Shown: in pieces, positions 47,501 to 49,892 of the stretch | Layout: each line of letters opens with the position of its first letter | Position numbering within the stretch: position 1 is the first letter of the stretch | Assembly: GCA_902800645.1 (NCBI GenBank) | Contig: CADCFC010000005.1 | Span: forward strand, 1-50,528 | Direction: 5' to 3' | Origin: an uncultured Erysipelotrichaceae bacterium | Lineage (GTDB): Bacteria > Bacillota_I > Bacilli_A > RFN20 > CAG-826 | DNA: 50,528 nt | Notes under the pieces: generated by a model | The model's database searches: none | What the model saw: the letters and a program-made list of their open reading frames with translations, nothing else | What the model was told of the DNA's origin: nothing | Program-made: the position numbers and the translations under genes

Positions 47501-48674
47501 ATGTCGTTTTACGCAGCGGCAACGATAATCTTAGTAATTTTAATGGTTACCATGAGTATCCATGTTTTGAATTACACAGGATTTAATAAAAAACAAAAGC
47601 TTTGGTTCGTCTCAACTTTTGCCGCGATTACTTTCTGTTCTTTAGCGGAATATACGATTCAAGGTGGAGTTTATCCACTTCAATATAAACCAGCCTTAAC
47701 TATGTTAACGGTGTTACAATTTGCAGTCGCACCATGTTTCTCTATGCTTTTTGCGGGTGCTTTAGGACTTAAGCATCAAGTAAAAATTGTAATAGGGTCT
47801 TTTATTGTTTGTTTAACTATTGGAATTATATGCGCTCCATTTGGATGGGTGTTCTATTTTAATGAAACTGGATATCATCGTGGAGATTACTTCTTTATAT
47901 ATTTAATTACTTATGTAGCCTCTTTGGTATATATGGCTGTGGTATTATTCCTAGTCGGCAAAAAATTCAAACGTCGTGATATAGGCACAATCATCATGGT
48001 GGTTGTCGTTCTCGCTGCTGGAATTATTCCAATGACTTTAAGTGAATTACATATTGCTTATGTCGCTGTTGGTATTGCTGCTTGTATTTGTTACGTTTTC
48101 TATAACGATCTTGTGCAACAAGACACAAAAGAAGAACTCGTTAAAAACCAAGAGAAATTACAAGTAGTGCAACGTCAAATCATTACTCGACTCGCTAACT
48201 TGATTGAAAGTAGAGACATGGAAACAGGTGCGCACGTAGCGCGTACAAGTGCCTACGCTAAATTATTAGCGGAAGACGCTTCTAAAGAAGAAAAATATAA
48301 AGATCAAATCGATGACAAATTTATTGAGAAGATTTATTTAGTGTCTCCTCTTCACGATGTTGGAAAGATATTCATATCCGATAAGATATTAAGAAAGCCA
48401 GGAAAATTAACCGCTGAAGAATTTGAAGAGATTAAAAAACATACATCTTTAGGGAGAAGAAATACCGTTATCCGCGCGAATAATGGCGATTTCCGACGTC
48501 TTTGACGCGCTTGTGAGTAAAAGATGTTATAAAGATGCAATACCTCTTGAAGAAGCGTTTAAAGAGATAAAAAAAGAATCTGGAACTCACTTTGATCCAG
48601 AGTTAGTAAGAATATTTTTATCTAATAAAGATGCATATACGCGTATACACGAAGAGTTTATAGAAGAAGAATAA
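47501..48674 (+). pseudogene. Membrane HD-GYP domain protein, broken by an internal deletion and frameshift
   Basis: Codons from ATG 47501 (SD AAGGAAC, TATAAT at 47476) give about seven membrane helices, a coiled linker and the first half of an HD-GYP domain: IESRDMETGAHVARTSAYA, LVSPLHDVGKI and KPGKLTAEEFEEIKKHTSLG. The frame is then lost and stops at 48505. The end of the domain is in another frame: GEEIPLSARIMAISDVFDAL from 48453, then HFDPELVRIFL to 48674. The block that should lie between HTSLG and GEEIPL, about 45-50 residues with HHE and the GYP motif, is missing. Such proteins degrade cyclic di-GMP; this one cannot. The junction is at 48452-48455. Confidence 0.85.
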
Positions 48675-48774
48675 TTTAAATATTTTAACGAAAAGGGACC
48701 GTTTATCAGTCTTTTTTTCAAAACATATAACTACGTTATATAAAAAATATTTTAAAAAATTTTAAAAAAGTGCT

Positions 48775-48804
48775 TGCAATAAAAATATCAAAAGAGTTAT
48801 ACTT
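48775..48804 (+). promoter_or_regulatory. Promoter of the large non-coding RNA
   Basis: TTGCAA (48775-48780), 18-nt spacer, TATACT (48799-48804), after an AT-rich upstream tract that could act as an UP element. Transcription should begin near 48811. Confidence 0.6.
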
Positions 48805-48871
48805 GATGACAATCAAACCTGAAACGGGGTTTGATGGAGACCTAAGTGATGATAATCACTTATGCAACTCA

Positions 48872-49184
48872 AGACTAGGTAAGGCAATCAACGAAATAAA
48901 CGAAGTTGATAGAGCGGTTCTAGAAATAAAACATTCTAGATTAATGATTGCACTAGCAGAGGAGTGAGGGTAACTTCACTTCGGGTACATTCCTCCCTGA
49001 TGAGAAATCATCAATGGCGGTTGAGTTCAAGACTTAACAACGTAAGCCCATCACCAGACACGATCGAAGAGGAAATGCGTAACTTAATAATTACGCCACT
49101 GCCAATCTCCACGCTAAAGCAGCTCAAAACGTGGAAAGAACAGATGGAGCGAAAGCAAAAATCTGTGACTAGGTATTAGAGTCT
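48872..49184 (+). repeat. ncRNA unit 1
   Basis: Hairpins: TCTAG/CTAGA (48919-48940), AGTGA/TCACT (48963-48980), enclosing stem 48990-48995 with 49069-49074, TGATGA-GAAA-TCATCA (48998-49013), GTTGAGT/ACTTAAC (49020-49038), GCGTAA/TTACGC (49077-49096), TCCACG/CGTGGA (49108-49135). Confidence 0.8.
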
Positions 49185-49494
49185 AGACTGGATAAGACGA
49201 CTAACGACAAACCGATGTTGATAGGCCGGTTCTAATCTAAACTGATTAGATTAAATGTCGCTCCAGCATTGAATCATATGAGAGTATGGTTCACGGTAAT
49301 AGCCTCCCTGCTACAGTGGACGTCGAGTTAAAGCTTAACGACTTAAAGCCACCACCGGACATGACGAAGAGGAGAAAGCGATTGGTTAACATCCAAAAGC
49401 GAGTCTAATCCACATTAATTCAACTCAAAGTGTGGAGATAACGGAAGAGATATATATGGTTAGCTTCCGCGAAGAAAAAGACTTACAAAGCTTA
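49185..49494 (+). repeat. ncRNA unit 2
   Basis: Hairpins: AACCG/CGGTT (49210-49231), TCTAATC/GATTAGA (49231-49250), CATA/TATG (49276-49288), enclosing CCTC 49303-49306 with GAGG 49369-49372, CTG/CAG (49308-49316), GTC...GAC with GTTAA/TTAAC (49322-49342), TCCACA/TGTGGA (49409-49436). The first two stems share one base at 49231, so they may alternate or end one pair short. Confidence 0.8.
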
Positions 49495-49800
49495 AGACTA
49501 GATCAGTCATCCATGTCCTTAAATTGAACGAGGACAATCTGAGAGTTAACAATAGCTCAGTTAATGGACGCTCTAGCAAAGACTTATTAAGAACAAATTA
49601 ATAAGTATCGGTACGTTCCTCCCTGATAGCAATATCACTGGTCTCCGCGTTAAAGTTTGACGGAGTAAACCCAGCACCGGACATGACGAAGAGGAAAACA
49701 GCCCAGAAGCTAATAACTATGGGAAGCTGGCCACTAATGCGCAAATCAATCCCAAACGCATTTCAACAAGAAGCACCACCAGCCAAAAGGAACTTAACTT
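49495..49800 (+). repeat. ncRNA unit 3
   Basis: Hairpins: CTTATTA/TAATAAG (49583-49605), enclosing 49616-49621 with 49691-49696, TGATA-GCAA-TATCA (49624-49637), CTCCG/CGGAG (49643-49665), AATGCG/CGCATT (49736-49762). The end of the unit is set by analogy and is not sharp. Confidence 0.75.
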
Positions 49801-49846
49801 GGGTATTGTTGCAGGGTCTTGGACCCTGCTACAGTGCAACGGTTAC

Positions 49847-49876
49847 TGTGATAGCGATAGCTACCACATTTTTTTT
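49847..49876 (+). terminator. Terminator of the large ncRNA
   Basis: TGTG-A-TAGC, loop GATA, GCTA-C-CACA, then eight T. Directly upstream is another strong hairpin (GTTGCA/TGCAAC around GGGTC/GACCC, 49808-49840). Confidence 0.85.
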
Positions 49877-49892
49877 GCAAAAAATTATGAAA

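Follow-up and report, generated by a model that had tools for sequence, protein, structure and literature searches.

Tandem homologous domains containing the cow-rumen-1 motif in a predicted 1.07-kb bacterial RNA

Several bacterial RNAs carry repeated structural units on one molecule, among them the CsrB/RsmZ-type sponge RNAs and the RNAs of type III toxin-antitoxin systems (ToxI). The repeats in those RNAs are short motifs, whereas the locus described here holds units of about 310 nt with several pseudoknots. ROOL and GOLLD resemble it in being large, highly structured and pseudoknotted bacterial RNAs, and ROOL is often encoded near tRNAs. OLE is a further large structured RNA and, as far as we know, is not built from repeated domains. 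ROOL (eight chains, D4 symmetry) and GOLLD (D7 symmetry) form RNA-only homo-oligomers, and OLE forms an RNA-only dimer (PMC12286853). ROOL is carried by phages and prophages, is also known from the rumen, and matched 16S rRNA in abundance in one strain although it is not essential (PMC12286853). In ROOL and GOLLD it is the chains that oligomerise, whereas here paralogous domains repeat within one predicted chain and the loci are chromosomal.

A much smaller element, the Rfam family cow-rumen-1 (RF02946), proved to be part of this RNA. Its model spans 61 nt and consists of one stem/hairpin and a conserved 3' tail; it was reportedly first described in a 2017 study of 224 candidate RNAs. Neither cow-rumen-1 nor RF02946 was mentioned in the literature that we searched, which did not include the 2017 description, so tandem copies may have been noticed earlier.

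Extent of the RNA gene and its relation to cow-rumen-1

The window, by which we mean the whole 50,528-nt stretch analysed (contig CADCFC010000005.1 of an uncultured Erysipelotrichaceae bacterium, assembly GCA_902800645.1), had been examined previously from its letters, and three recurring landmarks had led to the proposal of a structured RNA of about 1.07 kb made of three tandem units. All nine landmarks were found exactly where that original prediction had placed them: AGACTAG, AGACTGG and AGACTAG at 48872, 49185 and 49495; GC-N-CYAGCA at 48950, 49260 and 49570; and CCTCCCTG at 48992, 49303 and 49618, with a period of 310-315 nt. These features, and all others given below, are on the forward (+) strand.

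The window was compared with all 4227 families of Rfam 15 by cmscan. Each unit contained one full-length cow-rumen-1 match, at 49011-49072 in unit A (64.8 bits), 49313-49372 in unit B (73.8 bits) and 49635-49694 in unit C (77.7 bits), all exceeding the gathering score of 53.4 bits; the E values in the whole window, best first, were 7e-17, 9.7e-16 and 4e-13. Because the same model recurs once per unit and the same layout recurs in 39 complete arrays, the periodicity is far beyond chance. In a narrower search at E ≤ 1 no family matched the RNA over its full length, and cow-rumen-1 pieces alone were above cut-off; the scores of OrzO-P and GHRLOS (E up to 1) fell far under theirs, and the ROOL, GOLLD and OLE covariance models gave no match up to an E value of 1. 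The suggestion that the RNA is new thus holds for the molecule as a whole, which is absent from Rfam, but not for one 61-nt piece of each unit, which was already there. That piece is one fifth of a domain of about 310 nt and roughly 1/17 of the RNA, and both homology and covariation cover about 1.07 kb and all three units. Moreover, the unpaired tail and the apical loop of the cow-rumen-1 model are partners here in two pseudoknots (PKc and PKb, respectively), both absent from the Rfam model.

The whole gene was placed at 48809-49876 (about 1.07 kb), with its putative 5' end set by the -10 box and its 3' end by a T-run. The promoter-like element (48774-48803) consists of TTGCAA at 48774-48779, an 18-nt spacer and TATACT at 48798-48803, and is preceded by A/T tracts at 48750-48770. 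An 8-bp leader hairpin at 48843-48862 (arms 48843-48850 and 48855-48862) covaried at pairs 48846-48859 and 48849-48856 (E 0). The gene ends at 49848-49876 in an intrinsic terminator, GTGATAGC-GATA-GCTACCAC followed by one A and eight T residues, with the hairpin at 49848-49867 and the T-run at 49869-49876. A helix closing the 5' and 3' ends, between CTCAAG in the leader and CTTGGG in the tail, seemed plausible on inspection but gained no covariation support.

Nearly all homologous arrays have matching elements. The promoter (mostly TTGCAA/TTGACx-N17-CATACT) lies about 217-240 nt 5' of the first cow-rumen-1 hairpin, and a hairpin followed by a T-run lies about 217-258 nt beyond the start of the last. 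A few of the promoter calls were weak, and one array (G170b) had no recognisable terminator. Unit C of that copy (L217) lacks its 3' part as well as the terminator, and the copy is perhaps decaying. The two elements occurred once per array, also in those five-unit arrays whose 5' end is complete, and from them we infer that the units are transcribed together as single long RNAs. Among homologous loci, no sequence conservation was found outside the limits set by promoter and terminator.

No coding potential was found when ORF lengths in 36 homologues were compared with those in shuffled sequences: the longest ORF averaged 58 aa in the homologues and 61 aa in the shuffles. As predicted, no frame spans the region.

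Unit types, copy number and fold

Units A (48872-49184), B (49185-49494) and C (49495-49806) were classified in a tree of 139 units with SH-aLRT support. All 39 third units and the last unit of three five-unit arrays formed one clade (C, support 99), and all 40 second units, together with units 2 and 4 of the five-unit arrays, formed another (B, support 97); the remainder comprised first units and units 1 and 3 of the five-unit arrays. Mapping the labels A, B and C on the tree took two changes, the minimum. By the placement of their units the five-unit arrays are A-B-A-B-C, the first unit of one of them (G033) being cut by a contig end and reading like A. Five solitary units, two without a recognisable 5' domain, formed a single clade (support 96) that was sister to C (94).

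The gene family therefore appears to fit the formula (AB)nC, a rule drawn from three five-unit loci including the one cut by a contig end, with n = 1 as the usual case, n = 2 in those three loci and n = 0 in the solitary units; the last case is suggested by their sister relation to C. The cow-rumen-1 hairpin within each unit, these distinct unit types and their copy rule had escaped the original prediction, and its count of three, though borne out by 39 complete three-unit arrays, is not universal, as one, three and five units occur. Mean pairwise identity was 0.73 among C units, 0.63 among A units and 0.67 among B units. Since C is the most conserved and carries extra helices (P5, P6a, P8 and P10), it is likely to be the functional core.

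Each unit comprises a three-way junction domain, a cow-rumen-1 domain, the hairpin P9 and, as delimited in unit A, a linker. P1 and P2 close the three-way junction, P1 being CTAG/CTAG, or CTGG/CCAG in unit B of the window. P6 (CCTC/GAGG) closes the cow-rumen-1 domain with P7a and P7b, and the 3' hairpin is P9. Across all units conservation peaks in the GACAYGAYCGAAGAGG segment, where the best-conserved letters include largely unpaired positions.

Three pseudoknots were assigned to the unit. PKa joins the loop of the junction hairpin to the P9 loop, by GTTGA-type/TCAAC pairing in A and B and AATTGA/TCAATT in C. In unit A (48904-48910 with 49118-49124) it was 94.4% paired with double changes at 3 pairs, and in unit C (AATTGA at 49522-49527 with 49746-49751) 96.6% paired, again with double changes at 3 pairs; in unit B (GTTGA at 49217-49221 with TCAAC at 49420-49424) it was 97.8% paired and showed little covariation because it is almost invariant. 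In PKb the apical loop of cow-rumen-1 pairs with the 3' linker of the unit, at 49030-49035 with 49179-49184 in A, where pairs were exchanged (CG:14/UA:12 and AU:17/GC:11), and at 49331-49336 with 49488-49493 in B and 49653-49658 with 49790-49795 in C. PKc pairs CGGY upstream of P6 with RCCG in the cow-rumen-1 tail. It covaried in unit B, where 49295-49298 and 49354-49357 were 95.3% paired and two pairs had double changes, and was weak in unit A; in unit C (CGGT at 49609-49612 with ACCG at 49676-49679) it is invariant, and thus compatible with pairing rather than proven in C alone. By eye, the solitary units offered GGTT/AACC, GGC/GCC and GGT/ACC at this position.

The best PKa partner lay in the same unit for A in 30 of 34 RNAs and for C in 32 of 34. 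For the loop of unit B, a partner from another unit scored better in 21 of 34. PKa could therefore also engage in kissing between units or between molecules, and a cross-unit contact is possible at B.

Covariation was assessed in an alignment of 41 full-length RNAs; an initial set of 35 had a mean pairwise identity of about 65%. Every pair of columns was scored by a G-test with average-product correction and compared with a tree-aware null, which re-evolved each column along the tree while keeping its number of changes; as 8 null replicates were used, the E values are coarse. Twenty pairs scored above every null pair (E < 0.125), all of them at least 85% canonical, and one of the best 33 covarying pairs (E up to 0.6) was non-canonical. 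Stacked covarying pairs gave the same helices in each unit. None of these 33 best pairs joined two units.

Double changes were also counted unit by unit with the named structure in separately made MAFFT alignments. In unit A, 96.5% of pair cells were canonical and double changes occurred at 33 of 50 pairs; the corresponding values were 96.8% and 26 of 46 in unit B, and 97.6% and 44 of 72 in unit C. For each unit, 0 of 500 shuffles reached the observed value on any measure. Sliding the partners by 1-3 columns lowered pairing to 23-47%. This control is biased towards the structure, because part of it came from the very sequences examined; such circularity does not account for the double changes or for the outcome against the tree-aware null. 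In an alignment mixing all unit types (A5) the 3' part aligned poorly, and a full unit is too long for calibration of a covariance model. Taken unit by unit and over full-length RNAs, covariation bore out the proposal of a structured RNA of homologous tandem units in which the same hairpins follow each landmark.

Distribution and genomic setting of homologues

Within the host's family, a covariance-model search for cow-rumen-1 was positive in 44 of 224 genomes, spread over 10 of 35 genera; none of 14 control genomes was positive. At the level of the order, 43 of 279 genomes were over the cut-off, all within the host's family, and in a sample of the class 4 of 395, all in the host's genus; the searched genomes outside the family gave sub-threshold scores only. 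Of the arrays in related genomes, 39 were complete with three units, spaced by about 302 and 325 nt, and three had five units; five matches were solitary, and further arrays were interrupted by contig ends (G002, G004 and G127b). The host genome has one array.

Searching genome contigs with the short pattern CCGGACAYGA-CGAAGAGG was abandoned for this family search as the pattern is too short, and many of its listed matches in unrelated genomes are probably due to chance. Fifteen IMG/VR contigs matched the same pattern; in the 14 checked by cmscan (all but L151) no cow-rumen-1 was found, and a viral origin was rejected. Two of these viral contigs contain type II hammerhead ribozymes (L160:277-341, L160:3330-3392 and L158:103-165), which are unrelated and share only the short pattern. 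By blastn, no phage or plasmid sequences matched the RNA loci.

In some genomes the RNA is present in two or three diverged copies (G008, L171; G015, L177; G170, L216/L217), side by side in the first two of these and near both ends of one 158-kb contig in G170. The tree of full RNAs rejected four host genera (g1, g46, g7 and g8) as clades, with AU p values of 0.013, 1.3e-4, 1.8e-13 and 0.019. The disagreement between RNA tree and host genera, the several diverged copies and the patchy presence indicate that the gene has probably been transferred, or else repeatedly duplicated and lost. Comparison with empty sites showed a rearranged region: genes k0 and k2 adjoin without the RNA in the window's own genome, and no exact insertion boundary was seen.

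The window contains metabolic, transport and regulatory genes and looks chromosomal; no tRNA gene was found in it. Just upstream of the RNA, an HD-domain gene (47501-48674) is broken, as a pseudogene or through an assembly error: the frame 47501-48505 stops within the HD domain, whose last part is read in another frame (48483-48674) and whose middle is missing by Pfam positions. Across the array loci, the first downstream genes fell into 32 clusters, often on the other strand, and the first upstream genes into 37. The commonest of each (7 and 6 loci, respectively) were limited to one genus. A linked protein partner was sought by clustering the flanking ORFs of all array loci, and none was broadly common.

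A DUF3990 gene lies 27-92 nt downstream of the RNA at four loci (L165 and L175 in G001 and G013; L230 and L231 in G192 and G193). These belong to two genera with distantly related RNAs, and a helix-turn-helix domain is present in the gene of one genus and absent in the other. Among the solitary units L174, L232, L178 and L235, two adjoin genes resembling comFA, comFC and secA. In three genomes with solitary units a small gene (74-112 aa) converges on the RNA; the one tested had no Pfam match.

Explanations for the tandem architecture

Three homologous domains that fold separately lie on one chain. The RNA is under selection at the RNA level, with the same internal pairings in a fixed order and without a conserved cis target. 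An RNA domain family of this architecture is, on the comparative data, almost certain. The lack of a common neighbour gene fits action in trans, as we infer for the family. Overall, we read the molecule as a free-standing, trans-acting multidomain RNA, most likely a structural scaffold or covalent pseudo-oligomer, with confidence that is about evenly balanced; that it works in this way, and not as a protein sponge or some further kind of trans-acting RNA, has, in our estimate, slightly less than an even chance.

In each domain P1/P2 close the three-way junction, P6 closes the cow-rumen-1 core and P9 forms the 3' hairpin; the loop-loop contact PKa, the loop-linker contact PKb and the short third pairing PKc lock it. 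A and B form the repeating block and C the terminal unit. In a scaffold, the homologous domains may occupy equivalent positions in a covalent pseudo-oligomer, with C offering a specialised conserved surface that A and B extend structurally, much as in the RNA-only assemblies of ROOL, GOLLD and OLE, except that here a single chain contains the repeats. More specifically, the domains, having arisen by internal duplication and kept the order (AB)nC with odd numbers of units (1, 3 or 5), might form one particle of pseudo-threefold or higher arrangement. We regard this, like the threefold particle raised by the original prediction, as possible and put it forward tentatively; since no inter-unit pair was among the 33 best, contact between units, and hence any particle, is unsupported by base pairing.

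A repeated site for a binding protein would produce the same anatomy. In such a multivalent ribonucleoprotein or protein sponge, the nearly invariant GACAYGAYCGAAGAGG of each unit would titrate or array three (or five, or one) protein copies. The conservation and partly unpaired state of this segment would suit a binding site, unit numbers of 1, 3 and 5 vary as in multivalent sponges, and the promoter and terminator counts give one transcript per array. However, plain repetition of a binding site needs no distinct unit types, and A, B and C have been kept distinct across the family; nor is a protein gene linked to the RNA. CsrA and Hfq were found in none of the 11 host genomes tested, while CsrA controls gave matches, which removes two well-known protein partners of bacterial RNAs. 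We consider a sponge rather unlikely, although binding of a protein other than these two is a serious rival to the scaffold.

An accessory or selfish element (plasmid, phage satellite or toxin-antitoxin-like module) would serve its own maintenance, and could account for an RNA phylogeny that rejects four host genera, for the patchy presence in 44 of 224 genomes, for multiple diverged copies per genome and for the DUF3990 gene directly downstream in two genera. The RNA loci, on the other hand, match no phage or plasmid, share no common neighbour and have no definable clean empty site, and the conserved sequence ends at promoter and terminator. A type III toxin-antitoxin module would be expected to have a toxin gene regularly downstream, which is not the case across the 32 downstream clusters. 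This explanation seems improbable to us.

The large size and nested pseudoknots, together with a terminal unit that is more conserved and has invariant segments of its own, might also suggest a ribozyme with a single catalytic domain, probably C, supported by A and B. As no conserved cleavage position or substrate was found, and the units are paralogous rather than functionally layered, we think this very unlikely. Tandem structured domains ending in an intrinsic terminator recall a tandem riboswitch or cis-acting leader, yet the neighbour clusters include no conserved regulated gene downstream, the genes that do follow are diverse and often on the opposite strand, and the terminators end the RNA ahead of them, which leaves such a role scarcely conceivable. 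Finally, the ROOL/GOLLD variant raised by the original prediction can be set aside with near certainty despite similar length, ornate fold and rumen origin, for neither Rfam 15 model matched at E ≤ 1 where cow-rumen-1 was the sole family above cut-off, and the setting of ROOL is absent, the loci being chromosomal and free of phage matches, with no tRNA in the window.

What was known before is the 61-nt motif; the full RNA, its unit types and its copy rule are absent from Rfam 15 and from the literature searched. We know of no second bacterial noncoding RNA whose ancient paralogous domains are this large and keep a fixed order, and of none that follows an (AB)nC rule. An orphan Rfam hairpin thereby becomes a fragment of an RNA class with an architecture, a promoter, a terminator, a unit grammar and a host range. 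Its wide conservation shows that the fold of the RNA matters to the cell, and the growth of large RNAs by domain duplication can now be put to the test in this family. Should the domains assemble into a single particle, the ROOL and GOLLD cages, whose structures were solved recently, would have a counterpart made of one chain, and if the pseudo-oligomer reading is true, the RNA would be the counterpart of repeat-domain proteins.
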